A stretch of 64,000 nucleotides of DNA, taken from positions 1-64,000 of the forward strand of contig DYGX01000015.1 of NCBI GenBank assembly GCA_020724465.1, written 5' to 3'. The position numbers and the translations under genes were made by a program. Of this stretch, positions 2,353-29,205 are shown piece after piece (position 1 is the stretch's first letter; each line of letters begins with the position of its first letter). Below the pieces are notes generated by a model that worked only from the letters and a program-made list of their open reading frames with translations, was not told where the DNA came from and did no database searches. The stretch comes from Thermoflexus sp. GTDB lineage: Bacteria > Chloroflexota > Anaerolineae > Aggregatilineales > Aggregatilineaceae.

Positions 2353-5300
2353 TCACCCGGCGGCTTCTTCGGTCGCGGCGGGTGACGAACTCTCCGGCGC
2401 CGGCTCGACCGGCAGCACGACGCGGAATCCCACCGTCGCGTAGCCCTCGCGCGGACTGCGCGACGCCCGCGCGGTAGTGCGCATTAGCGCCGGCGGGTCA
2501 TTCCACGATCCGCCCCGCACCACCCGCAACGTGCCGGACGGCGGCCCCGGCGGATCCTGCGCGCCGTCTTCCAGCGCGCTGTAGTAGGTGTCGTCCGCCC
2601 AATCGGCGGTCCATTCCCAGACGTTGCCGGCCATGTCCAGCGCCCCGACCCACGACGCTCCCGCCCGGCGACTGGCGTCACCCGCCGGCTGCAGGCGCCC
2701 GCAGTCGATCAGATTCGCCAGGCCGCAGCCCGGCTCTTCCTCGCCCCAAGGATAGAGCACGCCCGACGGCCCGCGCGCCGCGTATTCCCACTGGGCTTCG
2801 GTCGGCAGCGCGCCGCCCACCCACTCCGCATAGGCCTGCGCGCCGCTCCACGGGACATACACCACCGGCGCATCGGCGTACTGCGGATCGTCGAAATACA
2901 GCCGGTTGGACGGAGCCGGGCACGCCTCCGCCTGGACACAGGCCGCGTACTGCGCGTTGGTCACTTCGGTCTGGCCGATCCAGAACGCGCTCAGGCAGAT
3001 CTCGGTTGTAGCGTCCGTCTCGCCCATCGGGAAGCAGCCTCCCGGCACATACACCGCCGGAACGCCGTTCACCGTCAGGCTGATCGGCAGCCAGTCCTCG
3101 TTGCGGACCGCGTCGAACTCTGGCACCGCGCCGAGCGCGTCGTCATCGGCGGACTCGCCCTGCGGGATCACGACCGGCTCGCCCTCTTCGAGCGCGTCGC
3201 CCTCAGCGGGCGGCGCCTCACGCGCTTCTGCCGGGCCGCTGCCGACCTCACGCGCCGGGAAGACGACCACGCGCGGCTGGCCCTGCTCGGCGTCGACCAC
3301 ATACAGGTTGCCCGCCACATCAAACGCCAGCCCGGCCGGCGAGCGCACTTCCAGCACGCCCGCTTCCAGGTCTTTAGGCAGGTTGAAGGACAGCGCCGGG
3401 ACGCCCTCGGTCGTGTAGGCGACGACGCGGTGCTTGTCGTCCATGTCGGTGACATAGACCAGCGTGCCGGCGGGGTTGATCGCCAGATAGGGCCGGTTGT
3501 ACGACTGGCGGTTGGCAAACCACATGTTGACATCCCACACGCGCAGCGGCAGCCCGTCGATATCGAAGACGTGCACGCGCTTGTTCCAGGTGTCTGCCAC
3601 GTACAGATCGCCGGTGATGGGGTGGAACGCCATTCCCACCGGCTCGTCGAGCTGGCCCAGCCCGGCCCCAGCCCCGCCGATGTCGCGCACGAACTCGCCC
3701 TCAGGCGTGTAGACGCGCACCCGCTTGTTGCCCGTATCCGCGACATACACCAGCCCGTTCGGGCCAATCGCCACGTCGCGCGGGCCCCAGAACGCGTCCG
3801 GCGACGCATCCTGCGAGACAATCCCCTCGTGGCCCCACATACGCAGAAACTCGCCTTCGGGGCTGAAAACCTGGATACGGTGGTTCCACGTGTCGGCCAC
3901 GTAGATCTCGCCGTCCGGCCCCAGCGCGATCCCCCAGGGCTGACGCAGCGTGCCGGGTTCGTTCGAGCCGCCGGGCTGCGCCCCGATCGTCTGGATCACC
4001 GATCCGTCCGGTGCCAGGATCACAACCCGGTTGCGCTCGGTGTCAGCGATGTACATGCGCCCCTCGGCGTCCAGCACGATATCGCGCGGGCCCATCAGGT
4101 CTGCGAACTGGCCCAAGATCGCCTGCGCAGGCACGGCGCGGAACACCCGATCTTCGGGATATTCTGGCTCGCGGATGTCAACCCGGCTGGAGCCAATACC
4201 TGCGTCCCACACCCGCGCTGCGATCTGCTTGTCCACAAAGACGTACATCCGGTCCGAGACTGGCCAGTTGTTCACGGCGAAACGCTTATCGCCCCGGCAT
4301 TCGTTCACCACCGCGGCCAGGCAACTGCTCCGGTAACGCGCCTGTTCCTCGGGTGTCTCGCCCCAATTGGCTTCGGCCTCGCAGCGTGGCTGGCGGTTCT
4401 CGATGCACATCGCCTGCGCATAAGCGCTGTAATCGCGCCGCCACCAGATATCGAACAGGCCCGCGCGATAGTAGCGAGCAGCCACGTTGTCGGCGGACAG
4501 GCTGAAGACGTTGGCGACACGGTCGTAGGTCAGGTTGAAGTATTCCTGCATCGGCCACCACAGGCGGATGTAGTTGAACTCGTAGTAGCCATCGCCCAGG
4601 ATGCGGCGCACATCCCCCGCCTTCTTGCCACCGACGACCACCACGCGCGCACCGTCCAATACGGCCGGGTCCACGCTGCCCGCCTCGCCGCGCAGGTAGC
4701 CATAGTTGCCGTAATGGCGGAAATACCAGGTGTAGGGCCACGAGGACTCGTCGTCGAAGACGATGCGCATGTTGTAGCCCTCGTTCGTGATCGCGGCGAT
4801 GCGGTCGATCTCGTGCAGCACGGTCTTGATCGCCGGCCCGGCGTGCGCGTAGACAAGATACTCCGTGGCGTAGTCGTAGTTGATGTAGCTCGCCATGACC
4901 GCCGTCCGCGCGGTCAGCACGGCCAGCAGCACGAAGCTCACCACCCCAACGGCGCGCGCCAGTTGCCCTCGCCCGACGCGCCGCCCGAAGCGCCCGATCA
5001 CGTACAGCGCGCCCAGGAAGATCAGCAGCGCCGCCAGCCACGTGCCGGTAGCGGCCAGTTCGTCGGGGCGCCGCCCGACAAACGGCGCATCCTTGCCCCA
5101 CAGCCGCAGCACCACATGCGCCAGCGCCACTAGACCGACCGGGATCGCGACCAGAAGAGCCAGCCCGCCGCCCTCGCGCAGCGCCGCCGGGCGCAGCCCG
5201 CTCGCGATCCGGCCAAACCACCAGCCCGCCGCCAGGATCAGCGGGACAGTCAGATGGGTGGTCAGCCAGGGCATCTTCTCGCCGGCGATTGACAGCGCCA

Positions 5301-7602
5301 GCAGAATCATGATCCCCCAATAGCCGACCATGCCCAGGAACGGGAGCGCCCCGATCCACTCGGGATCGTCGCGGCGGTGGCGCGCCTCTTCGCCCGCGTC
5401 GTAGGGGCGCACCAGACGGCCCGGAAAGCCGCTGTAGCGCACGACGCTGGGCGTCTCATATGCCGCAGGCGGGCCGTCCTCAGGCTGCGGAGTGCGGTCC
5501 GGCGCCTGTGTCGCATCCGCGATCGCGGTGCGCTCCGCCTCGGCGCCGGCGAGCGCTTCATCCGGCGCGTTCAGGCTCGCCTCGTCTTCCGCAGCCCACG
5601 CAGCCTCGCGCTCGGCCAGCCGACGGTCGCGCCGCCAGCGCCAGAAGAGCGCGATCCCGCTCACCCCGGCGCCCAGCGCGCCGATCACGGGCAGATATTC
5701 GTAGACGGGAAGCTGCGTCAGCACGTAGTAATATTGGGGCTGGCTGCCGCGCCGGACTTCCTGCTGCTCCAGCCAGTAGCCCAGCGAGCCAATCGCGCCG
5801 GTGACCAGCCCGTTCTGGTTGCTGAACACCGTGGTAAAGAAGAAGGCGAAAACGCCGCCGAAGATCGCCGCCGCGGGCAGCCAGCGCCGCCAGTTCCACG
5901 CCATCCCCACCGCTACCGCAGCGGCCAGGAAGGGGATCACGGTCATGAAGGCGGCGCGCACCGTCTCGCTGCCTTCCTGCGTCTGCGTGTTGTAGTTCTC
6001 CAGGTTATACCCGGCCCAATACAGCGGGAAGGCCGTCAGCCAGGGCAGGATCAATGTTCCGATCACGATCAGCACATCGAACACCGGCTGGCGGTTGAGG
6101 AAATCCCACAGCCCGGTGAAGAAGCGCGTCACCAGCACGACGATCACCAGGACTGCCGCCGCGCCCCAGGCGACCCACAGCGGCAGGTTGTTGTACGCCC
6201 CGTCCTGATGCTCCGCGCTGGCGGTCGGATCGGCGGCGAAAGGCTGCGCGGTCGTCTCGGAGACGAAGCTGCGCCGCTCGAATATGACCAGCACGCCCGC
6301 CACCAGAACCGCGATGAACAGCAGCAGCAGCAATTCGCGCCAGGGCAGCGGCAGCGTGCCGGGGAACGCAAACACGGCGGATAGAAACACCACGAACAGC
6401 ACCAGCAGCGCGGGCAGCATGATCCAGGTCAGCAGACGCACGAAGTTCGACGCGTCAAAGCCGGTGGACACGGCGTACTCTTTGGTCGCGTTCACGCCAT
6501 GCGTCTGATCGTATTCGCTCAAGACGGTGGTCTGCGTCCAGATCGTGTCCGGCTTGATGACGTCAATGGTCACGATCACAACCAACGCCAGCAGCCCGCC
6601 CACGATCGCCCCGGCGACGACCAGCAACAGCGCAGACTGCCCGTGCGCCAGCCCCTGCATGATCGCGCTCGCCACGCCGCCCTGGCGCCCCAGCGCGCGC
6701 CGGATCAACCCGGACGCGGCCAGCGGCACCCACACCGCCACAAACAGCATCGCCTGGAGCGGCAGGGCCGACGGAAACGACCGGACCGGAGACAGAATAA
6801 GCCGCAGCAACGCGCCCAACGTCAGCGCGCCCAGGCCCACCAGCGCCGCTAGGATCAGATGGCCGAGCACAAGCTGCAGCGCCGGCGGATGCCAGGCGGC
6901 GTGATCGTGCGGGCGGCGTTGAATCCCGATGTCCTGCACGATGCGCATCAGCCAGTACAGCGTCAGGAAGCTGCCGAAAAGCGCGATGTAGATGAACGCG
7001 ACCTCTTTCGACGCCAGCATCCCGATCAGCCCTGCCGCCATCACCAGAATCCAGCCGGGGCGCCGCTCCGGGCGACCGTCGATGTACTGCACGATGCCAT
7101 AGAGCAGCACCAGCGCGAAGAAGATCGTCGGGATGTCATGGCGGATGTAGCGGCTGTAGTACAGAAGCTGGGGCGAGATGAGCAGCATGAGCGAGGCAGC
7201 CAGCGCCCCCAGGCGTCCCAGCCAGCGCCGGAACAGCACCGGGAACATGACGATCAACACACCGAGAAAGGCCGGATACAGGCGCGCCGTGAAGTCGTTG
7301 TCGCCAAACAAGAAGTACGACAGGGCGGTCATGTGAAACAGCAGCGGACCGTGCATCAGCGGGGTGTGCTGGAACTCGCCGAACTGGTACAGCCGCCACG
7401 AGTAATAGGTGTGCAGGCTTTCATCGTGGCTCATGACGCGCGTGCCAAGATCGACGAAGCGCGTCACCAGCGCCAGCAGCAGGATCGCGCCGTAGGCAAT
7501 CGCTTCCCAGTTGAGCGCGTACGCCCGGGTCAGCAGGTGGTTCGCAGCCGCTTCGCGCGTGGGAACCTCGGGGACGGAATAGGTCTCTTCGCGTGTCGCC
7601 AT
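2353..7602 (-). CDS. Giant membrane protein: TIGR03663-type GT-C module + NHL propeller + FGE-like domain
   Basis: Protein of 1749 residues from the ATG at 7602 (an in-frame start at 7653 would overlap no useful signal). Residues about 30-950 form a polytopic membrane region with an early SHDESLHTYYS motif typical of GT-C glycosyltransferases, and the overall look of TIGR03663 proteins, partners of the YYY family. About 1165-1450 hold NHL repeats (for example MYIADTERNRVVIL, IYVADTWNHRIQVF), a beta-propeller likely outside the cell. About 1505-1740 resemble the formylglycine-generating-enzyme/SUMF1 fold (PTEAQWEYAARG, NVWEWTADW, RGGSW, GFRV). The FGE Cys-x4-Cys catalytic pair after GGSW is replaced by NDPPALMRTT, so FGE oxidase activity is unlikely. 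Substrate and reaction are unknown. Confidence 0.85.
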   Translation of the reverse strand: MATREETYSVPEVPTREAAANHLLTRAYALNWEAIAYGAILLLALVTRFVDLGTRVMSHDESLHTYYSWRLYQFGEFQHTPLMHGPLLFHMTALSYFLFGDNDFTARLYPAFLGVLIVMFPVLFRRWLGRLGALAASLMLLISPQLLYYSRYIRHDIPTIFFALVLLYGIVQYIDGRPERRPGWILVMAAGLIGMLASKEVAFIYIALFGSFLTLYWLMRIVQDIGIQRRPHDHAAWHPPALQLVLGHLILAALVGLGALTLGALLRLILSPVRSFPSALPLQAMLFVAVWVPLAASGLIRRALGRQGGVASAIMQGLAHGQSALLLVVAGAIVGGLLALVVIVTIDVIKPDTIWTQTTVLSEYDQTHGVNATKEYAVSTGFDASNFVRLLTWIMLPALLVLFVVFLSAVFAFPGTLPLPWRELLLLLFIAVLVAGVLVIFERRSFVSETTAQPFAADPTASAEHQDGAYNNLPLWVAWGAAAVLVIVVLVTRFFTGLWDFLNRQPVFDVLIVIGTLILPWLTAFPLYWAGYNLENYNTQTQEGSETVRAAFMTVIPFLAAAVAVGMAWNWRRWLPAAAIFGGVFAFFFTTVFSNQNGLVTGAIGSLGYWLEQQEVRRGSQPQYYYVLTQLPVYEYLPVIGALGAGVSGIALFWRWRRDRRLAEREAAWAAEDEASLNAPDEALAGAEAERTAIADATQAPDRTPQPEDGPPAAYETPSVVRYSGFPGRLVRPYDAGEEARHRRDDPEWIGALPFLGMVGYWGIMILLALSIAGEKMPWLTTHLTVPLILAAGWWFGRIASGLRPAALREGGGLALLVAIPVGLVALAHVVLRLWGKDAPFVGRRPDELAATGTWLAALLIFLGALYVIGRFGRRVGRGQLARAVGVVSFVLLAVLTARTAVMASYINYDYATEYLVYAHAGPAIKTVLHEIDRIAAITNEGYNMRIVFDDESSWPYTWYFRHYGNYGYLRGEAGSVDPAVLDGARVVVVGGKKAGDVRRILGDGYYEFNYIRLWWPMQEYFNLTYDRVANVFSLSADNVAARYYRAGLFDIWWRRDYSAYAQAMCIENRQPRCEAEANWGETPEEQARYRSSCLAAVVNECRGDKRFAVNNWPVSDRMYVFVDKQIAARVWDAGIGSSRVDIREPEYPEDRVFRAVPAQAILGQFADLMGPRDIVLDAEGRMYIADTERNRVVILAPDGSVIQTIGAQPGGSNEPGTLRQPWGIALGPDGEIYVADTWNHRIQVFSPEGEFLRMWGHEGIVSQDASPDAFWGPRDVAIGPNGLVYVADTGNKRVRVYTPEGEFVRDIGGAGAGLGQLDEPVGMAFHPITGDLYVADTWNKRVHVFDIDGLPLRVWDVNMWFANRQSYNRPYLAINPAGTLVYVTDMDDKHRVVAYTTEGVPALSFNLPKDLEAGVLEVRSPAGLAFDVAGNLYVVDAEQGQPRVVVFPAREVGSGPAEAREAPPAEGDALEEGEPVVIPQGESADDDALGAVPEFDAVRNEDWLPISLTVNGVPAVYVPGGCFPMGETDATTEICLSAFWIGQTEVTNAQYAACVQAEACPAPSNRLYFDDPQYADAPVVYVPWSGAQAYAEWVGGALPTEAQWEYAARGPSGVLYPWGEEEPGCGLANLIDCGRLQPAGDASRRAGASWVGALDMAGNVWEWTADWADDTYYSALEDGAQDPPGPPSGTLRVVRGGSWNDPPALMRTTARASRSPREGYATVGFRVVLPVEPAPESSSPAATEEAAG

Positions 7603-7699
7603 AGAGTCTACTTCTCGCTCACAGCGCGCCCGTCCAGACACGGCAGCCCGCACCGGACGGTCGTTATCAGTTCACATGGCGTGCGTCTCGCGGCACCGC

Positions 7700-8284
7700 T
7701 TACCAGCCAGCCGCGTCGGTGGGCGCGTCCGGCACCAGCGTCGAGGCAGGCATGGGAACCGGGCTGGCCCCCACCGCCGGAACCAGCGCGACCGTTGCCT
7801 GCGGCAGCGCCCGTGCCACACTCCCGCCAGCGCTTGCCAGCGCCTCGTCGGTACTGCCTGGTGTCGGCGACGCGGTGCCACGCACCAGGTTCGATCCGGG
7901 TTCGAACGGCGCCGCCTCGGCGCGCATCCCGCTCTGCGCCAGCAGCGGCAGCGCCAGCGCGATCATCAACAGCGCGGCGAGCGCCATGCCCAGGCCCGGC
8001 ACCCACGACGAACGGCGCGGGCCGGCGGGCCGCGAGGACGTCTGGATATCTGCCCACACGCCCGCCCACACGCGCGCCATCTGGCCGGGTTGGGGCTGGC
8101 CGATGCAGGGCATCTCGCGCCGCAGATCGGCGGCGATCCGCTCTTCGCGGGCCAGCGCCTCGCGGCAGCGGGCGCACGCGCGCACGTGGTTCACCACCTG
8201 GGCGCGCTGCGCCGGGCCAAGCTGCCCCTGGACGTAGCGGGAGATCAAATGCGTGATGTGGCGGTGAAACATGGTCGCCCCCAT
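7700..8284 (-). CDS. Zinc-finger anti-sigma factor, single-pass membrane protein
   Basis: A 194-residue partner of the adjacent ECF sigma factor. The N-terminal domain carries the ZAS motif H-x3-C-x2-C (His33, Cys37, Cys40 in NHVRACARCREAL). One membrane segment lies near residues 105-128 (ALAALLMIALALPLL), followed by an extracytoplasmic Ser/Ala/Pro-rich tail of about 65 residues with no recognised domain. The ATG at 8284 overlaps the sigma stop as TGATG, suggesting translational coupling; a second ATG at 8272 with GGGGG upstream is also plausible. It would hold the sigma factor inactive until an envelope signal arrives. Confidence 0.85.
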   Translation of the reverse strand: MGATMFHRHITHLISRYVQGQLGPAQRAQVVNHVRACARCREALAREERIAADLRREMPCIGQPQPGQMARVWAGVWADIQTSSRPAGPRRSSWVPGLGMALAALLMIALALPLLAQSGMRAEAAPFEPGSNLVRGTASPTPGSTDEALASAGGSVARALPQATVALVPAVGASPVPMPASTLVPDAPTDAAGW

Positions 8285-8919
8285 CAAATGCTCCACAGCT
8301 CTTCCAGCGCGGCCTGATCGGCGGCGCTCATCGCTTTGCGAAGCTGTTCGTGCGCCAGCCGGACCCGGCTTTCGGCGGTTTTCTGCGGACACCCCATGAT
8401 CTCGGCCATCTCGCGGTACGTCAACCCCTGGCCGTAGCGCAGCGCCACCGCCTCGCGCAGCCGGGGCGAGAGCGTGTGCAGCGCCTGGGCCAGCGACGCG
8501 CGCAGCTCCTGCCACGCCGCGCGCACCTCCGGCGACTCGGCCGCCGGAGTCGGCGGCTCGACGCCAAGCGACAGCAGGTGGCCAAGCGTGATCGTCGGCA
8601 GCCACTTGCGCCGGCGGGCGTTGCGGCACCGGCTGATGGTGATGGTGTACAGCCAGGTGCGGAACGCGCCGCGCGCCGGATCGTAGCGGTTCAGATTGCG
8701 AAAGGCGTAGACCAGCGACTCCTGCAGCACGTCTTCGGCGTCCTGTTCCACCAGCAAGACGCTGTACGCCAGCCGGTAGAGTGCCGGCGCGTAGCGCTCA
8801 TACAGCGTCGCGAACGCGCTCTGGTCGCCCGCCTGGCAGCGCGCGATCAGCTCGGGCAAATCCGGGTCGTTGGCGATGCGCTCGGCGGGCGCCTGAGATC
8901 GTGGCTCGATCTTGGTCAT
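8284..8919 (-). CDS. ECF-type RNA polymerase sigma factor
   Basis: 211-residue sigma-70 family protein with only regions 2 and 4. Region 2 is visible as AFATLYERYAPALYRLAYSVL, with QDAEDVLQESLVYAF around residues 60-75 (core binding and -10 recognition). Region 4 is LSPRLREAVALRYGQGLTYREMAEIMGCPQKTAESRVRLAHEQL, a helix-turn-helix for -35 recognition. It sits inside the run of giant membrane protein genes, directly upstream of its anti-sigma partner, so it probably controls this surface-glycan locus or an envelope response. No ECF promoter could be assigned by eye. Confidence 0.92.
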   Translation of the reverse strand: MTKIEPRSQAPAERIANDPDLPELIARCQAGDQSAFATLYERYAPALYRLAYSVLLVEQDAEDVLQESLVYAFRNLNRYDPARGAFRTWLYTITISRCRNARRRKWLPTITLGHLLSLGVEPPTPAAESPEVRAAWQELRASLAQALHTLSPRLREAVALRYGQGLTYREMAEIMGCPQKTAESRVRLAHEQLRKAMSAADQAALEELWSI

Positions 8920-8980
8920 AGTCTCTTTACACCCCGCCCCCCATAATTCCTCATGAAATCGCGTCCTGGTTCTTCTCGCG

Positions 8981-10936
8981 TCACGGCACCACCTCGACGC
9001 CGTACACGTCGCTGCGCACCCAGAGCATCAGCGTTTCGCTCGGCGCCGGCTGGATACGCGTCGCGCCACGATAGAGCCACATAATCATATCACGCCACGA
9101 GAGCGAGTCGAGCGCCCAATCACGCCGGGTGATCAACGTTTTGCCCACGTAGTCCGCACCGAGCACGGGATGCGGCTCAACCGCCGGGGCGATCACGGCT
9201 GCCGTGCGCACTTCTGGCCCCAGGCCGCCGACAAAGGTGGTGTTCGGATAGCGCCGCAGCATCCAGGCCAGCGCGCCATCCCGCGGGACCTGCGCCGTGA
9301 TGTCGATCAGGTGCGGCGTCCCGTTCGCGCGCAGGCTCATCGTCTCCAGTGTCTCGTCCAGCTCGCGGATGTCGTCCGTAACCGGATCGGTGAACCACAG
9401 CATGCGCGGATCGTCCGGCGCCAGCAGAGCTGCGTGCCCACCCGCGCCCGCGCCGAACACCAGCAGCGCGCCCAGCGTTCCCAGCGCCAGACCGTGCCAG
9501 GCCGTGCGCGCGCCCCAGACGCTGCCCACCAGGAAGTAGAGAATGCCGACCAGCAGCGTGAGCAGGATCGTCAGCAGGGCGCGGAGCTGAATGAAGCCCA
9601 GCACATAGCTGAACACCTGCACGCCCTGCACCTCGGCGAGCTCGTTGCTGGCGCTGTTGCGGCTATAGAGGCCGGAGACGATCTGCTCGACCAGCGCGTC
9701 CAGACGGGTGACGCCCGCCGGCAGATCGAGCAGGATCTGCTTGCCCATCAGGACGAGGCTCAGCGCTACCGCCGCCCACAGCGCGAACGTCACCAGCGCG
9801 TGAACCGGCAAACCCCACCGTGGCACGTTCCAGACCACGCCCGGCTCGTCGGTGAGCCAGCGCGTGACGCTCAGCGCGACCAGCGTCGCCAGCGGCAGCG
9901 TCAGCCACAGGGCATGCGCGGCAGTCGCACCGGCATAGCCCAGGCCCCACACGATCCCCGCCAGCAGCCAGCCCACCAGCGCCCGCTCGAAAAAGCTGCC
10001 GTCGCGCACGGCCCGGTAGGCGGCCAGCAACCCAAACAGCGCCAGCCCTGGCTCGTAGCGCAGCGCGATCAGCAGCGGGAACGCCACCGGTGCGCCATCG
10101 GGGCGGGCGATCAGACCGCGCACCGCCCCCTGGACCACATTCCCGATGGACGACAGCCCGGCGGGCAGAAAGAACAACAGCGTGCTCAGCGCCAGCGCGA
10201 TCACGGCCGTCGCCAGCGCGCCCTGCGCCCAGGGCCAGCGCCGTGCCAGATCGCGCAGGCCGGGTCCGATCCCCGCCGCCGGGTCGTCTTCCAGCAGCCA
10301 GGCGAACAGCACGCCGAACGCCAGCCCCGGCAGCATCAGGAACCCGGCCGGCTCGACCAGCAGCGCCATCGCGCCGAAAGCGACCGTCGCCGCCACGGCG
10401 AAGGCCGCGCGCCACGTCTCGACGAAGCGCAGGACCAGCCACGGCCCCACAATCGCCAGCAGCGCCGTCCAGACCACCGGGCTAGACGTGCGCGACGCCA
10501 GCCACGCGACCGGCGAGATCGCCAGCAGAAAGCTCAGGATCAGCGGAGGCAGCGGGTTGAGGTAGCGCCGCCACAACGCAGGCGCCAGCACGAGCAGCAC
10601 GCCGCCAAGCGCGCTGGGGAAGCGTGCCGCCGCGTCCGACATGCCGCCGAAGGTGAAGGTCAGCGCGTGCAGGGCCAGCGTCAGCGGGCTGTCCGGCGTG
10701 TAGACAGGGCCGGGCACCGCTGGGTCGATCAGGCGCAACGTGCCGAGCGCCCGCCACGCCTCGCCGTCGTCGAGCGGCGCGGCACCCAGCGCGGCAAAGC
10801 GCAGCCCAACCGCCACCAGCGCCAGCAGCGCGTAGAGCAGCATTTCCGGCGACACGCGGATACCCAGCGCCGCTTCAACGCCGCCATCCGAGCGATCGCG
10901 CCCCAAAGCCGCCGCCTTGTCAACCGTCATGGTCAT
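8981..10936 (-). CDS. Polytopic membrane protein, GT-C/GT39-like
   Basis: 651-residue, strongly hydrophobic protein. After a short cytoplasmic N-terminus and a first membrane helix (LLYALLALVAVGLRFAAL) comes LDDGEAWRAL, placed like the Asp/Glu catalytic loop of GT-C glycosyltransferases that use polyprenyl-phosphate sugars. Roughly a dozen hydrophobic stretches follow. A soluble C-terminal part of about 130 residues (ADDPRMLWFTDP, YPNTTFVGGLGPEVRTAAVI) resembles the extracytoplasmic tails of archaeal and Chloroflexota GT39-like proteins. The substrate is unknown. The start at 10936 has AGGCAG upstream; an ATG two codons later is also possible. It lies 73 nt after the single-domain YYY gene. 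Confidence 0.7.
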   Translation of the reverse strand: MTMTVDKAAALGRDRSDGGVEAALGIRVSPEMLLYALLALVAVGLRFAALGAAPLDDGEAWRALGTLRLIDPAVPGPVYTPDSPLTLALHALTFTFGGMSDAAARFPSALGGVLLVLAPALWRRYLNPLPPLILSFLLAISPVAWLASRTSSPVVWTALLAIVGPWLVLRFVETWRAAFAVAATVAFGAMALLVEPAGFLMLPGLAFGVLFAWLLEDDPAAGIGPGLRDLARRWPWAQGALATAVIALALSTLLFFLPAGLSSIGNVVQGAVRGLIARPDGAPVAFPLLIALRYEPGLALFGLLAAYRAVRDGSFFERALVGWLLAGIVWGLGYAGATAAHALWLTLPLATLVALSVTRWLTDEPGVVWNVPRWGLPVHALVTFALWAAVALSLVLMGKQILLDLPAGVTRLDALVEQIVSGLYSRNSASNELAEVQGVQVFSYVLGFIQLRALLTILLTLLVGILYFLVGSVWGARTAWHGLALGTLGALLVFGAGAGGHAALLAPDDPRMLWFTDPVTDDIRELDETLETMSLRANGTPHLIDITAQVPRDGALAWMLRRYPNTTFVGGLGPEVRTAAVIAPAVEPHPVLGADYVGKTLITRRDWALDSLSWRDMIMWLYRGATRIQPAPSETLMLWVRSDVYGVEVVP

Positions 10937-20971: not shown

Positions 20972-23900
20972 TCACTCCAGCCCGATGAAGCCTGCCATCA
21001 CGCGGTAGATCAGAAACTCGCCGGTTTCTGTGCCCTGGGTGGTCTCGTAGGTGTAGGTGTACCGCTCGATTGTCCCGCCCGGAAACGTGTCTTCCAGGAA
21101 AACAGCAGTGGCATAATCCTGCGGATGAATCATGATGAACAGCGGTTTGGACGGGTCATAGGCGTAGGGCGTGCCCCGGTTGGCGGCGATACGATCGAAG
21201 ATCTGCTCGCGCGTGACCAGCCCGTTCGGCCAGCGCAGGTCCCCGGCGACCGCGCCGAGGATGCGGTGATCGAGCCAGTGCGGATAGGCGACCATAAAGG
21301 CGTTGCCATAGCTGCCCTCGCCCAGCGCGAACGCCTTCATCGGCGCGGCGATAGCGTGATAGGGCTTCCAGCTATGGCTGTAGCTGAGCCGGTAGTCCGT
21401 GAAGTAGTTGCGCCAGTTTGGTCCAATGGCCCCCGCCAGGACGAGCGCGATCGCCGCCAGACCGGCAGCGGCGCCCACCCACGCGCGCCATCGCTCGCGC
21501 GGCGCCTCGTTCAGCCCGGCGCCCAACGCGCCCAGCGGCAGCGCCGCCAGCAGAAAGACGGCCGGGATCGCGCCGCTGGCCCGCGTAAAGCTCGGATTTT
21601 CGATGGTATAGGCCAGGGTCAGCGCGGAAGGCAGGAGCATCACCAGCACCACCGCCGGAACCAGCCAGTCGACCGCCGCCGGGCGCCGTGCCACCCGCAC
21701 GCCCCACAGCACCAGCCCCAGAATCAGCAGGCCGCCGGTCAGCCCGTCAAGCGCCGGGTGCCCCTGAGCGTTGTTGATCCACGCGCTGTCGCCCTGCCAG
21801 TGCGCCATACGCAGCGCATCCGCATAATTGTCGACCAGCACGCCGCGCTGCTCCCAGATGCGCTCGATCTGCTCGGCCAGCGAGGGGTGATAGACGACCG
21901 TCTGCCCGGTGTCGGGATCGATCCGCCAGAACGTCTCTTCGCCGAACAGCCGCCCGCGCGTGCGGTTCCAGAACTCGTCCGGATACAACAGGCTGTAGTG
22001 GTGCATCGGCAGATAGAGCGCCAGGGCGATCACGGCTGCCGCCAGCAAGCCGCCGCCATAGCGCGATGTCGCGCCGCGCCGCGCCCGCGCCGCCAGCGCC
22101 ACGATCGCGAACCACGCCATCGCCGCCAGCGGGATCAGCGCGCCGAGCTGCTCGCCAAACGCGCGCAGGTTGGCGCGCTCGCTTCGTTCCAGCAGCCAGG
22201 CGCCGCCCGCATAGGCCAGCACCGGCAGCACCGCCGCCACGCCCACCACCGACGCTTCCAGCATGATACGCGGCACGTCCCGCCAGCGCCGCGCCGTACC
22301 CAGCGCCGCCAGCGCCACGCCGATCACCGCCAGCACGGGCAGCATGCGGTTGGCCTGGTAGAAATAGACCCCCGCGCCGAGCGTCAGGCCGAGCGCCACA
22401 AAATCGCGCATCCGGTTGTGGCGCATGGCCCGCGCCAGAAAGCCGATCGCCAGCGCGGTGGTCAGCGGCGTCAGCACGATCCGCAGCCCCAGGCGCGAAA
22501 GCATGACGTGCCACGAGCTGATCGCCACCAACCCCGCCAGCGCCAGCCCGACCCAGTTGCCCAGCCGCCGGGCGCGTGCTGTCTCTGTGCCGATTACCTG
22601 GCGCGCCATCCACCACAACGCCGGCAGCGTCAGGATGCCCTCGATCGCGCTGGCAAGCTTGAGCGCCCGGAAATTGAAGCCGACGCCCAGCACATCCGCG
22701 ATGAAGGCGACGACCATCATCTGAAAGCCTTCACGCCCGCCGTTGTTCGGGAAGAAAACCGCCACATGCCCCTCGCTGACGCGCAACGCGTCGAGCAGCT
22801 TTTCAATGTGGTCGCTGGTCATCTCCGGCGGGGTCGAATCGAGATTGTGCAGGCGAAAATAGGCCCCCACGGCAATCATCGCCAGCAGGGCAAGCGCGGT
22901 CGCCAGCACGTCTGGCTGTCGCCACCAGCGGCGCGCCGGGCGGGCTGACTGCGCGCGCGGGCGCGGCCCGGATTGCCGCCGGGCGCGCCAGTTGACGAGC
23001 AGAATCCCCACCCACAACGCAATCGACAGCGCCCACAGGATCACGCCGCCCGACGTCAGCACCACGTCGATCACCCGGCCGTCGGGCGCGCGCTGGACGT
23101 TGGCGCGGTACGCCAGGCCGGAAAGCAGCACCGCCGCCGGGATCAGCGCCAGAGCCGGCGTGTGCACCTGGAGCCAGGACGTCACCGGGGTGCCGCGCTG
23201 CGCCACCGGCTGCGCGGTGGGCGCAGGCATGATCATCGAGCGCACACGGAAGACGGCCTCATCACCACCGTCCGGCTCGTCACCTTCCGGCTGATCCGGC
23301 AGCGCATCCTCGGGCGGCGCCAGGCCGATCAGCAGCCCGGTCCACAGCGCGGCGCTCAGCGCCAGCAGGATCGCGGCGCCCGCTATACCGCCGGGCGCAA
23401 TCAGGGCCAGCGCCAAAGCCAGAAGCGCCGCGCCCGCCCAGGCCGCGCGCCGCCATCGGGCCGCCGGGCCGTCCGCCACAAGCGCGTGGATCGCTGCCGC
23501 CGCGCGCGGGAGACGCCGCGCCCACCAGCCGCGCGCTGCATACAGCTCGACCCCAACCACCAGCGCGCCGCTCAGCACAAACCACATCAGCGCGCCGCGC
23601 GTATCACCGCGCAGCCGGGCCACCGGATCCAGCGCCGCGGCGTGCAGAGTCACGCCGCCTTGCAGCGCCAGCAGGATCGCAGCAGCCAGCGCGCCTGGCC
23701 GCATCCAGCGCGCCGCGTCGCGGGCTGCCGTTTCGCCTTCGCTGACCGGCTCCTCATGCGGGGCAGGCAGCGGCTCGTCTTCGTCCCAGGGTTCCGGCTC
23801 AGGCGGAGCCGCCTCGCGCCCATCGGAGCGCCGGCTCGCCGCGTTTGCGTCCGCGTCCGCCGCCGGATCGTAGGTCAGCACACGCCAGAACAGGCGCGCG

Positions 23901-24082
23901 GTGCGCGCCGGTCGCCAGAACAGATAGCGCAGCGCCTCGGCCAGCGTCAGGTCTTCGAAGATCACCGCCGCCGCCTGGACCGGGCTGCCGTCCTGGGGAA
24001 CCGGCGCCGCCGGAGAATCATCCGGGCCGCGATACCCCGGCGCGCCGGACTCTGGCGCGTGCTCGAAATCCTGCTCGTTCAT
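20972..24082 (-). CDS. Glycosyltransferase family 39-like membrane protein with long N-terminal extension
   Basis: 1036 residues. The first 140 are cytoplasmic, acidic and Pro-rich. A hydrophobic block of several helices (about 150-340) precedes the GT-C core. The core starts near 395 with LAMIAVGAYFRLHNLDS, then PEMTSDHIEKLLDALRVSEG and FFPNNGGREGF, a loop typical of GT39-like enzymes of Chloroflexota that use polyprenyl-phosphate sugars. A C-terminal soluble domain (ITREQIFDRI, HPQDYATAVFLEDTFPGG) covers the last 150 residues. The extra N-terminal membrane block is unusual for the family and unexplained. The gene starts 36 nt after the upstream gene ends and is followed by a 123-nt gap before the giant fusion. 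Confidence 0.82.
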   Translation of the reverse strand: MNEQDFEHAPESGAPGYRGPDDSPAAPVPQDGSPVQAAAVIFEDLTLAEALRYLFWRPARTARLFWRVLTYDPAADADANAASRRSDGREAAPPEPEPWDEDEPLPAPHEEPVSEGETAARDAARWMRPGALAAAILLALQGGVTLHAAALDPVARLRGDTRGALMWFVLSGALVVGVELYAARGWWARRLPRAAAAIHALVADGPAARWRRAAWAGAALLALALALIAPGGIAGAAILLALSAALWTGLLIGLAPPEDALPDQPEGDEPDGGDEAVFRVRSMIMPAPTAQPVAQRGTPVTSWLQVHTPALALIPAAVLLSGLAYRANVQRAPDGRVIDVVLTSGGVILWALSIALWVGILLVNWRARRQSGPRPRAQSARPARRWWRQPDVLATALALLAMIAVGAYFRLHNLDSTPPEMTSDHIEKLLDALRVSEGHVAVFFPNNGGREGFQMMVVAFIADVLGVGFNFRALKLASAIEGILTLPALWWMARQVIGTETARARRLGNWVGLALAGLVAISSWHVMLSRLGLRIVLTPLTTALAIGFLARAMRHNRMRDFVALGLTLGAGVYFYQANRMLPVLAVIGVALAALGTARRWRDVPRIMLEASVVGVAAVLPVLAYAGGAWLLERSERANLRAFGEQLGALIPLAAMAWFAIVALAARARRGATSRYGGGLLAAAVIALALYLPMHHYSLLYPDEFWNRTRGRLFGEETFWRIDPDTGQTVVYHPSLAEQIERIWEQRGVLVDNYADALRMAHWQGDSAWINNAQGHPALDGLTGGLLILGLVLWGVRVARRPAAVDWLVPAVVLVMLLPSALTLAYTIENPSFTRASGAIPAVFLLAALPLGALGAGLNEAPRERWRAWVGAAAGLAAIALVLAGAIGPNWRNYFTDYRLSYSHSWKPYHAIAAPMKAFALGEGSYGNAFMVAYPHWLDHRILGAVAGDLRWPNGLVTREQIFDRIAANRGTPYAYDPSKPLFIMIHPQDYATAVFLEDTFPGGTIERYTYTYETTQGTETGEFLIYRVMAGFIGLE

Positions 24083-24118
24083 GCCTGTCCGCTCGCAATC
24101 CTTCCGGGCGGGCCACTT

Positions 24119-26011
24119 TCAGCCAACCCGCACCGGCCCCAGCCCGATCTGCCGGTCGCGAGAGCCGTCCGGCAGGGTCACGCCGACCGTCTCCAGCGGG
24201 CGTTCGACATCCGCGAACGCCGACAGGCTGATGAACCAGTCGCCGCTCGCCTCCGCCGGAAGCGGCAGCCGCACCGCATCGGACACCGTCTCGCCGGGCC
24301 GCCAGCACGTCACCGGGTAGCGCGTCTCGTCCGGCTGCCAGACGACCGCTTCCCCCGGCGTGCCATCCGGCCCAACCGGCAACGCCGCGAAGTAGTAGGG
24401 CGTGGTCACCTGCCGCTCGCTGCGCCAGTTGAGGTGCAGCACAACCGCGCCGTCGTCCGCCTCAGCCGACCAGCCGACCAGCCGGAAGCCTGGGTCGAAG
24501 CGGGTATCCTGCGGCACGGCGGCAGCGCGCGCCGGCGGCGGATCCGGGTGCGGAGCCAGATCCGGCGCGCCCATCACCGCCCAGGTGCTCGCCAGCGCCA
24601 GCAGCAGAACCCCCTGCGCCGCCCACAGCCCGCGCCAGGCCCGCGCACGCTCCTCAGGCGTGCCCAGCCGCGCGATCCACTGCCCCGCGCTCAGCAGCGC
24701 GAAGGGGATCAGAAACAGCCACACGCGCCCGGTTTCGCCCCGCGCCGTTCCGCTGAGCAGCAGCAACCCCAGCGTGCCAAACAGCGCCAGCGGCAGCACA
24801 TCCTCTCCGCGCCGCCAGCGGACCAGCGCCAGCAGCGCCGCGATCACGACCGGCAAGCCGCCCAGCAGCGCCCATTCCCAGGCGTGCATCCACAGCCAGG
24901 GCACATATGGGCGGTCAAGTTCCAGATGCCGCTCGAACGCCACGTGCGCCATCTCAAACGGCGCGCTGCCAGTCAGCGCCCAGAACACCAGCCACGGCAG
25001 GGCCAGCCCCAGCGCGAACCACGCGCCGACCTGCACCGGGAACCACCACACCCTCGCCTGCCGCTCGTTGAGCGCGTGCCGCAGCAGCGCGTACAGCCCC
25101 AGCAGCCCAACGAGCGGGATCATCGAAAAATTGGCGAAGGTCAGCAGCCCGGCGATCAGCCCGGACGCGGCCCACCAGCCCGCGCCGCGCCGCGCGTCAT
25201 AGCCGCGCAGCAGCAGCCCGAACGCCGCCACGCTCAGCGCCGGGTAGACCGTGTTCCACGATCCGGCGAACATCAGCGCCGCGGGGACCAGCGCCCACAG
25301 CAGCGCCAGCCAGGGCGCATCGAGCGCCATCCGGCGGGCCACCGCCGCCAGCGGCAGGACGGTCAGCGCGGCCCAGACGGGCATCAGCAGCCCGACGAGC
25401 GCCGCCGCCCACTCCGCCGCCGAGAACTGCAGCAGCGTGTAATTGTCGCACTGCAGCGGCACCAGCGCGCGCCGGATCGCCCCCGCCACGCCGGGAAGTT
25501 GCTCGAAGCCCGCCGCCGCGCCCGCGTAGACCAGCGGCAGGCCCGGCGGGCTGAGCGCCACATGCTGGCTCAGCTCGCGGTAATCCACCATCACCGCCGG
25601 CCAGTCGTGCCATGCCGGATCGGACCAGTCGATCAGCCCGGCGGCGGTGTATGGGCCGGTGGCCGTCAGCGATGCGGTCCGGTAGAACAGCTCCGCCAGC
25701 GGGTCCCCTGCGCGCGCCCAGGTCACCAGCAGCGACAGCGCCACCGCGCCCAGCATCCCCCAGGCAAGCGCGCCCCGCGTCCACGCCGCCCGGATCAGCC
25801 ACGCCGCCACCAGCGCGAAGACGGCAACCCCCGCCCCCAGCGCCAGCGCCCGCCCTAATGGGACCGGCTCGTGCGGCCACTGCCAGTGAAACAGCTCCGC
25901 GCCGCGCAGAAACGGCACCAGATCCAGCGCCAAAATCAGCGCCAGCGCGGCACTGGCGGCGACGATGATCACCACCGCCCGCGCCGGGCGGCTACCCTCT
26001 ACCCGCCTCAC
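24119..26011 (-). CDS. Polytopic GT-C-like membrane protein with beta-sandwich tail
   Basis: 630 residues from a GTG at 26011 that overlaps the upstream methyltransferase stop as GTGA, implying translational coupling. Around 11-13 hydrophobic stretches are visible. The extracytoplasmic stretch VDYRELSQHVALSPPGLPLVY (about 142-163) has the acidic plus Pro-Pro-Gly look of GT-C enzymes such as GT87/GT39. The last 130 residues, beginning FRLVGWSAEADDGAVVLHLNW, form a beta-rich tail similar to the one in the separate 659-residue protein at 40 kb. Specific substrate is not predictable. Confidence 0.72.
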   Translation of the reverse strand: MRRVEGSRPARAVVIIVAASAALALILALDLVPFLRGAELFHWQWPHEPVPLGRALALGAGVAVFALVAAWLIRAAWTRGALAWGMLGAVALSLLVTWARAGDPLAELFYRTASLTATGPYTAAGLIDWSDPAWHDWPAVMVDYRELSQHVALSPPGLPLVYAGAAAGFEQLPGVAGAIRRALVPLQCDNYTLLQFSAAEWAAALVGLLMPVWAALTVLPLAAVARRMALDAPWLALLWALVPAALMFAGSWNTVYPALSVAAFGLLLRGYDARRGAGWWAASGLIAGLLTFANFSMIPLVGLLGLYALLRHALNERQARVWWFPVQVGAWFALGLALPWLVFWALTGSAPFEMAHVAFERHLELDRPYVPWLWMHAWEWALLGGLPVVIAALLALVRWRRGEDVLPLALFGTLGLLLLSGTARGETGRVWLFLIPFALLSAGQWIARLGTPEERARAWRGLWAAQGVLLLALASTWAVMGAPDLAPHPDPPPARAAAVPQDTRFDPGFRLVGWSAEADDGAVVLHLNWRSERQVTTPYYFAALPVGPDGTPGEAVVWQPDETRYPVTCWRPGETVSDAVRLPLPAEASGDWFISLSAFADVERPLETVGVTLPDGSRDRQIGLGPVRVG

Positions 26012-26859
26012 GATGCCGCCTTGCGCCCCAGCAGAGCCAGGTTAACCGTGCTCCGGCCCGGTGGCTCGTTCAGCTTGTTGGGCCGGTCGAAGAAGTTCAG
26101 CACCGCCACACCCAGGTTGATCGGATTGAGCAGGCTGCCGTTGTTGCGATCAAACGTCGTGCGGTCGGCGGCGTCGGCCAGCTTGCCCGGCAGCAAGCCA
26201 GACTCCAGCAGCGGCTTGCCCAACCCGTAGACCAGGTTGTGAATGAACGGGAAGCTGTAGTGGGTGAAGGCGCGCTCCGCCTCGACCACCAGCCCCGCCC
26301 CCTCGACCGCCGCGCGCAGTTGCTCGCGGGTGTACAGGCGCACGTGGTTGGCCCAGATGCCCGCCAGCGGCCCGCGCCGGATCTTGGTGTGGAACAGCGT
26401 TTCCAGCGTCTTGTTGATCGGGTCCCACAGGAACGGGTAATTCGCATTGGGCACGGTGATCGCCACCACGCCGCCCGGCTTAAGCACGCGCCGGACCTCG
26501 CGCAGCCCGGCCACATCGTCCTCGATGTGTTCCAGGATCTCGGAGAGGATCACGCCGTCGAACCAGTCGTCGGGAAAGGGCAGCGCGTAGATGTTGCCGC
26601 GCGTCAGCGTGATCCCCGGCAGGTGCCCGACGTTGCGCTGCGCTTTGCGGATGATCTCGTCTTCCAGCTCCAGCCCGACCAGCTCGCACCGGCTGACGTA
26701 GCGGATCATGTTCAGATAATAACCGCGACCGCAGGCGCAGTCGAGCAGGCGCGCGCCGTCGTGCAGCGGGATCCATTCGAAAATAGTCTGCACGCGCTTC
26801 TTGAAGGCCATATCGGCCTCGTTGCGGGTCATATGCCGGATCAGTTCGGGGTCAACCAT
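26008..26859 (-). CDS. SAM-dependent class I methyltransferase
   Basis: 283 residues with a Rossmann-type methyltransferase fold. Motif I is LLDCACGRGYYLN (about 37-49), the acidic residue after beta-2 is in VGLELEDE, motif II/III is WFDGVILSEILEHIEDD, and post-motif RRVLKPGGVVAITVPN follows. This is the Methyltransf_11 class used on sugars, lipids or quinones. Its position between a GT4 enzyme and GT-C proteins, with overlapping or close reading frames, suggests methylation of a glycan or glycolipid intermediate at the inner membrane face. The C-terminal third (HYSFPFIHNLVYGLG) is partly hydrophobic and may touch the membrane. Confidence 0.88.
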   Translation of the reverse strand: MVDPELIRHMTRNEADMAFKKRVQTIFEWIPLHDGARLLDCACGRGYYLNMIRYVSRCELVGLELEDEIIRKAQRNVGHLPGITLTRGNIYALPFPDDWFDGVILSEILEHIEDDVAGLREVRRVLKPGGVVAITVPNANYPFLWDPINKTLETLFHTKIRRGPLAGIWANHVRLYTREQLRAAVEGAGLVVEAERAFTHYSFPFIHNLVYGLGKPLLESGLLPGKLADAADRTTFDRNNGSLLNPINLGVAVLNFFDRPNKLNEPPGRSTVNLALLGRKAAS

Positions 26860-26915
26860 CTTCGGCTCGTCGTGTGCGGATCCGACCGGTCTGCGTTCGG
26901 ACTCAAATCGGTTCT

Positions 26916-26921
26916 ATCATA
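26916..26921 (-). promoter_or_regulatory. Possible internal promoter (-10 TATGAT) before the methyltransferase gene
   Basis: TATGAT on the minus strand (26921-26916) lies about 57 nt upstream of the methyltransferase start, in the 89-nt gap after the GT4 gene. No good -35 box is seen at 17 nt, so this is weak. Confidence 0.25.
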
Positions 26922-26948
26922 CCGCCTGGCGCGGCGTGGTCGAAATGG

Positions 26949-28130
26949 CTAGGGCCGCGCTGCCCGGCGCAAATGCTTCTCATAACGGTCAACCGTTTCT
27001 GTCAGGTTGAAAAGGCGCTCGATCTCCGCCCGCGGCTTAACCAGTTCCGCGCGGTGCCGCAGCACCTCGACGATCGCCTCGCCCAGGGCCTGCCAGTTCC
27101 CGCGCGGGACGATCCGCCCCATGCCGGTCACCGTCACCGGGACGCGCCCGCCGGGGGTGTCGGTCATGACGACCGGCGTCCCGCACAGCATCGCCTCGAC
27201 CTGCACCAGCGCGAAGCACTCCGTGTCGCTTGGCATCGCCAGCACGTCGCACGCCGCGTAGAAGTTCGCCATAGCCTGCATGCTGCTCAAAGTGCCCAGG
27301 AAGATCAACTGGTCCTCGTAGCGCTGGATCAGCGCCTGGTTGCGCTCCCAGGTGTCCTCGTAGCGGATGTCGTACTCCCCCGCGAAGACAACCCGTGCGT
27401 CCGGATAGTGACGGTTGATCACTTCCAGCGCGCGGATCAGCAGGTCGGGCCGTTTCTCCTGCACGAAGCGCCCGGCATAGCCGATCAGGGGACCGCTGTC
27501 CTTCTGCCAGCGCTCGCGCAGCTCGGCGACGCGCTCCGGCTGCGGCTCGGGCACCTCGATCGGCGGGTAGATGACCGACACACGGTCGCGGAACGGCTTG
27601 AGGTAATAGCTGTGGTCGGCGTAATCATGACTATACGCAATCAAGCGCGCCGCGTGCCGCGCCATGTAGGCGTAGTTCTGAAAGGTAAACCAGCGCACGA
27701 ACCGGTTGAACAGCCCCGGCGGCAGGATCAGATCGCCGTGGTGCGTGGCGATCAGCCGTTTGCCCGCCAGCCGGGTCAGCAAGGCCATCAGCGCCGTTTC
27801 GAGCATCGGCGTGTGCAGCCAGACCACATCGTGCAGGCGGATCAGCCCCCAGGCCGCCCAGGGATAGGCCGGCATCACCATCCCCCGGCTGACGCGCAGC
27901 GGTGCCCACAGCCGCACCAGCCGCACTCCGTTGATCGTCTCATCGCGCGGGAGATCGATCGCGTGGCGCGCGGTCAGGATCGTGACCTGGTGCCCGCGCG
28001 CGACGAGCTGCTCCGCCACGCGCTGCACATGAATCGGCACGCCGGTGCGGTGCGGCAGGTAATATTGCAGCGCCACCAGGATTTTCAGCGGCTTGTCGTC
28101 TTCGATACGTTCGCTGTCAGAAGCACTCAT
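26949..28130 (-). CDS. Glycosyltransferase family 4 (GT-B fold)
   Basis: 393 residues, cytoplasmic or membrane-associated retaining glycosyltransferase that moves sugar from a nucleotide sugar to a lipid or glycan acceptor. The N-terminal acceptor domain starts LKILVALQYYLPHRTGVPIHVQRVAEQL with the family's Gly-rich loop. The donor domain begins at PLIGYAGRFVQEKRPDLLIRAL, and the E-x7-E signature is DTECFALVQVEAMLCGTPVV. The ATG at 28130 is preferred over an upstream in-frame start at 28181 that would overlap the preceding gene; its ribosome site is weak. It follows the flippase-like gene by 31 nt, so both probably act on the same lipid-linked intermediate. Confidence 0.9.
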   Translation of the reverse strand: MSASDSERIEDDKPLKILVALQYYLPHRTGVPIHVQRVAEQLVARGHQVTILTARHAIDLPRDETINGVRLVRLWAPLRVSRGMVMPAYPWAAWGLIRLHDVVWLHTPMLETALMALLTRLAGKRLIATHHGDLILPPGLFNRFVRWFTFQNYAYMARHAARLIAYSHDYADHSYYLKPFRDRVSVIYPPIEVPEPQPERVAELRERWQKDSGPLIGYAGRFVQEKRPDLLIRALEVINRHYPDARVVFAGEYDIRYEDTWERNQALIQRYEDQLIFLGTLSSMQAMANFYAACDVLAMPSDTECFALVQVEAMLCGTPVVMTDTPGGRVPVTVTGMGRIVPRGNWQALGEAIVEVLRHRAELVKPRAEIERLFNLTETVDRYEKHLRRAARP

Positions 28131-28161
28131 CGGAATCGCGTTTCTGGAAAGCGCCGCCCGC

Positions 28162-29205
28162 TTAGCCGAGCGGCGCGTCAATCTCTGGCACGGCGGGCGC
28201 TTCCTGCCGGGCGCGCAGCGCCTGCGCTGCGCGGGTAACGTCGCCCAGGCTCACATTTTCCGCCCACAGGCCGATCAACCCCATCAGGATGTACGTCCCC
28301 AGGTTGACCACGTGTAGTAGCAGCGCGAACGCCACCGCCGGAGCCGCCGTCGCGCTCTCGACCAGCCCCGCCCCGGCCAGGCCGAACACCACCGCCGCCT
28401 CAAACGGCCCCAGATTGCCCGGCACAGCGGGAACCGCGATCGCAAACGACGCCAGCGCGATCATCGCCATCGACGCGGCCCAGGTCGGCTGGTCGAAAAT
28501 GGCGAACATCATCACGTAGCCCGCAATGACCGAAGCCGTCCACGCTGCCACCGTCCACCCGATCGCCTGCACCGCCAGCCGGGGCGACCCCAGCGGCACC
28601 AGCCCTTCCAGCACCTGATCGAGCCAGCGGTGCACCCGGGGGCCACGCAGCAGCGGCAGCAGCCGCCCGACGCCGTCGAGCAGGCGGTGCGCCCAGGCGG
28701 GCCGCCGCGCAAACACGGCCAGCACGATCACACCCGCCACCGCGCCGATCCCCAGCGCCGCCCCCACCAGGCCGATCTCCAGCCCAACCGGCAGGATCAG
28801 CAGCGTCAGGCCGATCAGCACGAAGACCGCCAGCGTGTCCAGCAGGCGCTCGACCACGATCGTGCTGAGCGAGGTCAGCGGCGGGACAGGCGGATCGGCG
28901 CGCGCGGCAAGCACGGCCCGCGCCAGCTCGCCCACCCGCAGCGGCAGCACGCCGTTGATGAAATAGCTGACGTTGAGGATATGAAAGCTGCGCACCAGCG
29001 GCAGCCGCCCGTTGAGCAGCACGCGCCAGCGCACCCCGCGCAGCCACAGCCCGACAATCGAGATCGCGACGCAGGGCAGCACGGCCCAGTAGCGGGCGCC
29101 GAGCAGCTCATCGCGCACGCCGGAGAAATCGCGGCGCAGCAGCACCGCCAGCGCGATCGTGCTGACCACAAGTCCCAGGATGATGCTGGACCAGCGTTTT
29201 TTCAT
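28162..29205 (-). CDS. Flippase-like integral membrane protein (LPG synthase TM / AglD2-type, UPF0104)
   Basis: 347 residues with about eight hydrophobic helices. The stretch GVLPLRVGELARAVLAARAD and the late IAVPAVPGNLGPFEAAVVFGLAGAG are typical of the lysylphosphatidylglycerol-synthase membrane domain family (PF03706, flippase-like TIGR00374). Members flip or assist transfer of lipid-linked compounds. Met-Lys-Lys-Arg at 29205 gives a positive-inside first helix and is the best start; upstream in-frame codons are Arg/Cys-rich and non-conserved. It is the first gene of the long minus-strand surface-glycan run. Confidence 0.85.
   Translation of the reverse strand: MKKRWSSIILGLVVSTIALAVLLRRDFSGVRDELLGARYWAVLPCVAISIVGLWLRGVRWRVLLNGRLPLVRSFHILNVSYFINGVLPLRVGELARAVLAARADPPVPPLTSLSTIVVERLLDTLAVFVLIGLTLLILPVGLEIGLVGAALGIGAVAGVIVLAVFARRPAWAHRLLDGVGRLLPLLRGPRVHRWLDQVLEGLVPLGSPRLAVQAIGWTVAAWTASVIAGYVMMFAIFDQPTWAASMAMIALASFAIAVPAVPGNLGPFEAAVVFGLAGAGLVESATAAPAVAFALLLHVVNLGTYILMGLIGLWAENVSLGDVTRAAQALRARQEAPAVPEIDAPLG

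Follow-up and report, generated by a model that had tools for sequence, protein, structure and literature searches.

We analysed a window of 64,000 nucleotides from Thermoflexus sp. (Chloroflexota, class Anaerolineae; contig DYGX01000015.1, G000:C5:1-64000 in a source genome of 4.42 Mb and 56 contigs) and, within it, an island of membrane glycosyltransferase-like genes at positions 2353-29205 in which a sigma/anti-sigma pair of the extracytoplasmic function (ECF) type is embedded. Combining gene content, linkage, co-occurrence, a predicted fold and a promoter motif, we suggest that the island is probably a set of inducible genes through which a sugar structure is built on the outside of the cytoplasmic membrane; since much of the phylum shares its core, it probably builds a sugar coat outside these bacteria.

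The island spans about 27 kb and comprises eleven genes, all on the minus strand and spaced by -20 to +123 nt, according to open reading frame calls and Pfam/NCBIfam profile searches; the initial annotation had the strand right and counted ten genes. In order of transcription they encode an LPG_synthase_TM protein, a GT4 glycosyltransferase, a methyltransferase, a GT-C-like protein of 630 amino acids (aa), a 1036-aa PMT_2 protein, YYY-L (2365 aa), YYY-S (902 aa), a 651-aa GT-C-like protein, the ECF sigma factor, the anti-sigma factor and an Agl23-NHL-FGE fusion. Six of the products are very large polytopic proteins of GT-C type, two of which are DUF2298/YYY proteins and one Agl23. The components named initially (flippase-like protein, GT4, methyltransferase, giant GT-C proteins, two YYY proteins, TIGR03663 fusion and ECF pair) were all recovered by the profile searches.

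Conservation of the locus and co-occurrence of its families

The genes that recur together most widely are the following.

13751..20848, minus strand: YYY-L, 2365 aa; TIGR03662 439 bits (cut-off 300.25), PF10060 346 bits (cut-off 27.8)
11010..13718, minus strand: YYY-S, 902 aa; TIGR03662 421 bits (cut-off 300.25), PF10060 320 bits (cut-off 27.8)
8981..10936, minus strand: 651-aa GT-C-like protein; third gene of the conserved core, distant relative of Agl23
2353..7602, minus strand: Agl23-NHL-FGE fusion; TIGR03663 261 bits (cut-off 126.25), NHL and PF03781 over their cut-offs

Neighbourhoods were compared in 160 loci of 3-24 kb each, taken mostly from metagenome-assembled genomes (MAGs) and in many cases cut by contig ends; gene starts in the relatives were assigned mechanically and transmembrane (TM) segments were counted by simple hydropathy. 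Among 40 loci of the class picked solely by a YYY match, YYY-L adjoins YYY-S in 24/30, a GT-C gene of ~600 aa comes next in 22/29 and Agl23 follows in 17/22 of those that extend far enough. Outside the class the YYY-L/YYY-S pair is kept in 12 of 15 loci and Agl23 in 7 of 10, and YYY-L, YYY-S, the ~600-aa GT-C protein and Agl23-NHL are found together in many Anaerolineae families and in several other classes. In the window's own order the full series of GT4, methyltransferase, PMT, YYY-L, YYY-S, GT-C, sigma, anti-sigma and Agl23-NHL recurs, preceded by LPG_synthase_TM where the sequence reaches that far. Because the same gene order is found in many genomes, the clustering, as judged from these loci, is not due to chance. 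The recurrent extra genes are only more GT-C genes, sigma/anti-sigma genes, methyltransferases and housekeeping-type genes. The closest public loci are in Anaerolineae and Chloroflexi MAGs, with YYY-S identities of 52-62%, and a literature search found no paper describing the locus.

The two main families also go together across genomes. Of the 150 genomes of the class, 142 exceed the cut-off for TIGR03662 and 140 that for TIGR03663; in the phylum Chloroflexota the figure is 129 of 201 for each family. When strong matches are counted in the 201 genomes, 130 have both families, three (all from one genus) have YYY only, Agl23 alone occurs in none and 68 lack both, so that Agl23 accompanies YYY in 130/133 genomes. 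This holds even in genomes in which the two are unlinked; a Fisher test gives p = 1e-50, a value that ignores shared ancestry, and the joint absence spans several separate families. Of the 14 control genomes, only Haloferax volcanii and Methanosarcina acetivorans have both families over their cut-offs. The TIGRFAM entry is said to have remarked on this co-occurrence already, and the initial annotation, too, had the families occurring together in Chloroflexota and some archaea.

Predicted fold and conserved residues of the YYY proteins

From its TM pattern and profile matches, YYY-L has a GT-C part at its N-terminus and a DUF2298/YYY domain at its C-terminus, with a soluble stretch (about residues 760-1270) between them. 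For YYY-S, a structure model computed with 75 input sequences reached a mean pLDDT of 91.3 and a pTM of 0.94. Its top Foldseek matches are AglB (1.8e-5) and DPY19 (2.6e-4), followed by AftA (1.3e-3), and realignment (VIA) gave Z-scores of 14.5 for DPY19, 14.2 for STT3, 13.2 for AglB and 12.9 for ALG12, as well as 11.8 over 504 residues for AftA; AftD and EmbC match too. The C-terminal domain superimposes on that of AglB with Z 11.3 and 2.5 A over 128 residues, and the model displays the STT3-type architecture of a GT-C fold with a C-terminal globular domain. Because the Z-scores are tied or close, they point to a GT-C fold with an AglB-like C-terminal domain but do not place YYY-S among the STT3 proteins. 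PF02516 (STT3) has no match in the YYY proteins and none in the source genome, and the identical search recovers STT3 in archaeal controls. Sequence searches of YYY against solved structures returned spurious matches or none.

Near-invariant in 46 YYY-S and 46 YYY-L sequences are E141, M144, D162, the YYY motif, E334, D344-x-H346-x-H348, R631, N633, K637, E768, H797, R822 and E856, all of which are kept in a Lachnospiraceae YYY homologue. The conserved acidic residue that follows the first core helix, together with the D-x-H motif, would fit the needs of a metal-using GT-C enzyme; AglB likewise has a D-x-H motif. The rumen bacterium Pseudobutyrivibrio xylanivorans has a plasmid gene for a DUF2298/YYY protein (L193:14878-17130) amid polysaccharide genes; the protein keeps the main invariant residues. 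The Pseudobutyrivibrio and Halarchaeum plasmid homologues were considered as cases of archaeal synteny and rejected, since neither adjoins Agl23 and the Halarchaeum plasmid has no Agl23 anywhere.

The Agl23-NHL-FGE fusion

The open reading frame of the fusion has 1766 aa, but its start is more likely the ATG at 7602. The GT39-like membrane part has ~18 predicted TM segments and matches PF02366 (45.1 bits) and PF13231 (38.5 bits), both over cut-off; the six-bladed NHL propeller lies at about 3274-4101 and the C-terminal FGE/SUMF-fold domain at about 2416-3054. The alignment contains invariant DE (SHDES) and HGP residues, and in a 1020-aa relative the propeller is modelled as a six-bladed NHL domain with Z 43. 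Sequence searches of the membrane part against solved structures gave spurious matches or none. Since all aligned Agl23 relatives carry the NHL propeller, which is seen in several other classes too, the fusion is, by these alignments, general and not peculiar to the source genome.

What is local is the extra FGE/SUMF domain, which the initial annotation had not named and which was detected in the window protein and in L115. It has no cysteine at the aligned catalytic positions, which sets it apart from formylglycine-generating enzymes, and we read it as a putative binding module. In L058 (13270-14445; G087) a free-standing, lipoprotein-like gene with an FGE-sulfatase fold lies between YYY genes; in the window this fold is fused to Agl23. 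A diversity-generating retroelement behind the domain was considered and rejected, the template copy being absent from the window.

The initial annotation took TIGR03663 to be a family without known function. This needs correction, as Agl23 of Haloarcula hispanica is a putative hexose-P-dolichol flippase that suppresses yeast Rft1 loss and supports translocation of M5GN2-PP-Dol, a lipid-linked oligosaccharide, in vitro (PMC11182771). Experimental work on the family in archaea thus precedes this analysis. The Agl23 family may serve in sugar transfer, sugar translocation or both, translocation being known for the archaeal protein alone.

A predicted ECF regulon

The regulatory genes and candidate promoters are as follows.

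8284..8919, minus strand: ECF sigma factor; PF04542 67.8 bits, PF08281 47.8 bits
7700..8281, minus strand: anti-sigma factor with N-terminal zf-HC2 (PF13490) and one TM segment; its start nearly abuts the sigma stop
8926..8950, minus strand: predicted promoter dependent on the sigma factor, upstream of the sigma gene, GGAATTATGGGGGGCGGGGTGTAAA; exact motif, conserved in relatives
29284..29308, minus strand: predicted promoter dependent on the sigma factor, upstream of the island's first gene, GGATTCATCCGGCGGGCGGTGTAAA; exact motif

The sigma factor has no Sigma70 domains other than regions 2 and 4_2 and an adjacent anti-sigma gene, as is typical of the ECF group. In 43 loci the pair is found after the GT-C gene and ahead of Agl23. 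In nine loci of other families (L064, L066, L068, L081, L092, L101, L103, L105 and L161) a different ECF gene is found between YYY-L and YYY-S; in the loci inspected, the short gene after it encodes a zf-HC2 protein in one and has no known domain in three others that were scanned. These sigma factors score far lower against the window sigma than those of the window's own order, and recruitment of an ECF gene to the YYY locus therefore looks, from sequence comparison, to have been repeated and independent. The close relatives L112, L113, L114 and L118 have a gap of ~500 nt between anti-sigma and Agl23 with an apparent short frame, perhaps acetyltransferase-like (by eye), which is missing in the window.

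The motif GGAWT-N13-GTGTAWA was first noticed upstream of the sigma gene in relatives. In its stringent form it has two sites in the window, before the sigma gene and before the first gene, against 0.04 expected, and three in the whole genome, where the reversed pattern has none; the third copy (C55:132137) is internal to an opposite-strand gene and was judged to be a chance match. A promoter matrix (27 training sites, the tested locus left out, 99% null threshold) exceeded the threshold before sigma in 33/43 loci, sites that are partly self-selected because the motif was discovered there, and before YYY-L in 15/36, which are free of that bias. Elsewhere the counts are near background: PMT 0/31, Agl23 1/37, the GT-C gene 3/46 and YYY-S 3/42. 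In the close relatives L254 and L255 a copy of the first-gene site precedes the homologous gene by 43 and 77 nt. Scans of the island for sigma-70 promoters and terminators gave results near shuffle level. In silico, the island is thus predicted to be an autoregulated ECF regulon in this lineage, and we infer that the sigma factor reads the motif. Of the initial picture, a locus for extracytoplasmic glycosyltransferase-like proteins that contains its own regulator is supported; the locus is conserved and appears to be co-regulated.

Other genes of the island and its flanks

28162..29205, minus strand: flippase-like membrane protein (LPG_synthase_TM), first gene of the island; PF03706 143 bits (cut-off 33.4), start ATG at 29205
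26949..28181, minus strand: cytosolic GT4 glycosyltransferase; PF00534 and PF13439, no TM segment, neighbour kept in relatives
26008..26859, minus strand: S-adenosylmethionine-dependent methyltransferase; PF08241 69 bits, neighbour kept in relatives
24119..26011, minus strand: 630-aa polytopic GT-C-like protein; ~10 TM segments, no Pfam or NCBIfam match
20972..24082, minus strand: 1036-aa PMT_2 (GT-C) protein; PF13231 29.6 bits (cut-off 26.1), neighbour kept in relatives

The first gene product belongs to PF03706 and scores 30.2 bits against TIGR00374, under the cut-off of 43.2; homologues stand in the matching position in L052, L218-L220, L254 and L255. The 630-aa gene was not found at the matching position, between methyltransferase and PMT, in L112 and the other relatives covering that slot; it appears to have been inserted into the operon locally. 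The 651-aa protein scores 48.4 bits against TIGR03663, under the cut-off of 126.25, and we class it as a distant relative only.

The prolyl-tRNA synthetase gene at 343-2142 lies past the end of the island and was excluded from it. On the other side, a divergent plus-strand gene (29453-30433) faces the first gene; its product, of secreted type, has three SH3_3 domains and one LysM domain. The predicted sigma site near 29284 falls in the intergenic region common to these two genes.

Proposed function and alternatives

In our model, for which we infer the enzyme activities, the lipid donor, the direction of transport, the acceptor and the signal, (i) the cytosolic GT4 and the methyltransferase would make and methylate a polyprenyl-linked sugar, (ii) the flippase-like protein, and perhaps Agl23 too, would carry lipid-linked sugars across the membrane, (iii) YYY-L, YYY-S, the PMT protein, the ~600-aa proteins and Agl23 would, on the outside, add sugars to an acceptor that may be a lipid, a glycan or a protein, and (iv) the NHL propeller and the FGE-fold domain would serve as binding modules. 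The ECF sigma factor, held by its membrane anti-sigma factor, would activate the gene that encodes it and the beginning of the island, as well as YYY-L in relatives, and in this way an envelope signal would switch on the whole gene set. A surface-glycan system, as proposed initially, is a reasonable reading of the locus.

No gene for a donor synthase, polymerase, ligase, wall linkage or acceptor recurs in the compared loci, and this, together with the lack of STT3 in the genome, keeps two more specific functions as rivals. The first, which we regard as possible though doubtful, is that the island assembles an extracellular polysaccharide or glycolipid as the Emb, AftA and AftD enzymes do for mycobacterial arabinan. 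The matches of YYY-S to AftA, AftD and EmbC agree with this, and the presence of several non-identical GT-C enzymes in one locus suggests several different linkages; however, the expected polymerase, ligase and wall-linkage genes are those that fail to recur.

Alternatively, the island could glycosylate surface proteins, with YYY acting as an oligosaccharyltransferase (OST)-like or DPY19/PMT-like enzyme that replaces STT3 and transfers sugars from their lipid carrier to secreted proteins or to those of the S-layer. The similarity of YYY-S to STT3, AglB and DPY19, including the AglB-like C-terminal domain, would fit this function, as would a source genome devoid of STT3 by a search that finds it in archaeal controls, and the Agl23 family acts in archaeal protein glycosylation (PMC11182771). 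Nevertheless, the Z-scores for STT3, DPY19 and ALG12 lie within about 1-2 units of each other and the fold therefore does not choose the acceptor, the YYY proteins lack a PF02516 match and no S-layer or acceptor gene is linked, and we consider this function rather unlikely. In a bolder version, YYY would be a separate OST-like branch which, together with Agl23 and controlled by a sigma factor that responds to an envelope signal, takes the role of STT3 in the main glycosylation of surface proteins in Chloroflexota; this strikes us as a long shot.

A third alternative is that YYY and Agl23 are mainly flippases for lipid-linked sugars and not transferases, for which the Rft1 suppression and M5GN2-PP-Dol translocation by the H. 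hispanica protein (PMC11182771) would be the precedent. Agl23 nevertheless keeps its PMT matches over cut-off and the invariant DE and HGP, and YYY has a predicted transferase fold with conserved acidic and histidine residues, all of which makes this improbable. Finally, GT-C genes are abundant and the source genome has 12 TIGR03663-like matches, but that unrelated membrane glycosyltransferases became neighbours by accident is refuted by the neighbourhood comparison, given the order conserved across families and the near-perfect co-occurrence, and has a negligible chance of being correct.

Several observations weigh against the proposal of an inducible gene set for an outer sugar structure. 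Scattering of the genes in related genomes would have spoken against the linkage claimed initially; linkage is conserved in most families, whereas Anaerolineales have no Agl23 beside YYY and in G259 and G274 Agl23 lies about 1.55 and 0.3 Mb, respectively, from YYY. The sigma/anti-sigma pair is lineage-specific, the first-gene site was not found in three more distant members of the order, and no strong site precedes YYY-L in the window itself. Because the island has no sugar-nucleotide, polyprenyl-P-sugar synthase or ligase gene, the pathway as read is incomplete. The fold likeness of the YYY-S model is no proof of catalysis, and the fold search with the Agl23 model returned NHL propellers only, the membrane part not being reached because propeller matches filled the list.

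Chloroflexota are common in soils, sediments and wastewater, and to our knowledge little is known of their envelope chemistry. The locus singles out a small conserved set of proteins, among them YYY proteins of no assigned activity, and offers predictions in the form of a YYY fold and residues, a fixed YYY/Agl23 partnership and a promoter motif for the regulator. New here are the predicted GT-C fold and conserved residues of YYY-S, the predicted sigma promoter motif and the generality of the Agl23-NHL fusion. Once found, the function of DUF2298/YYY would extend to archaea, where both families co-occur.

Comparison with known systems

The island shares the Agl23 family (TIGR03663) with the archaeal Agl22/Agl23 system of Haloarcula hispanica, and in the archaeal control genomes YYY and Agl23 also occur together; it differs in the NHL propeller and FGE-fold domain fused to its Agl23 and may also differ in the two YYY proteins and the ECF regulator that accompany it. 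With STT3/AglB and DPY19, YYY-S has the overall predicted GT-C fold in common and, for AglB, a similar C-terminal domain, whereas YYY proteins differ in having no PF02516 match, other conserved motifs and three extra N-terminal helices. The Agl23 part resembles GT39 PMT enzymes in its PF02366 and PF13231 matches and invariant DE; PMT enzymes carry MIR domains, in place of which the island protein, with its ~18 predicted TM segments, has the NHL propeller. Mycobacterial AftA, AftD and Emb proteins likewise combine a GT-C fold with a C-terminal extension and devote several GT-C enzymes to one envelope product, but a sequence relationship was not found and the island adds YYY, Agl23 and the GT4/methyltransferase genes. 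Finally, the regulator conforms to known ECF sigma/zf-HC2 anti-sigma pairs in its domains, adjacency, single-TM anti-sigma factor and autoregulatory-type site, and differs from them in being embedded within a GT-C operon.

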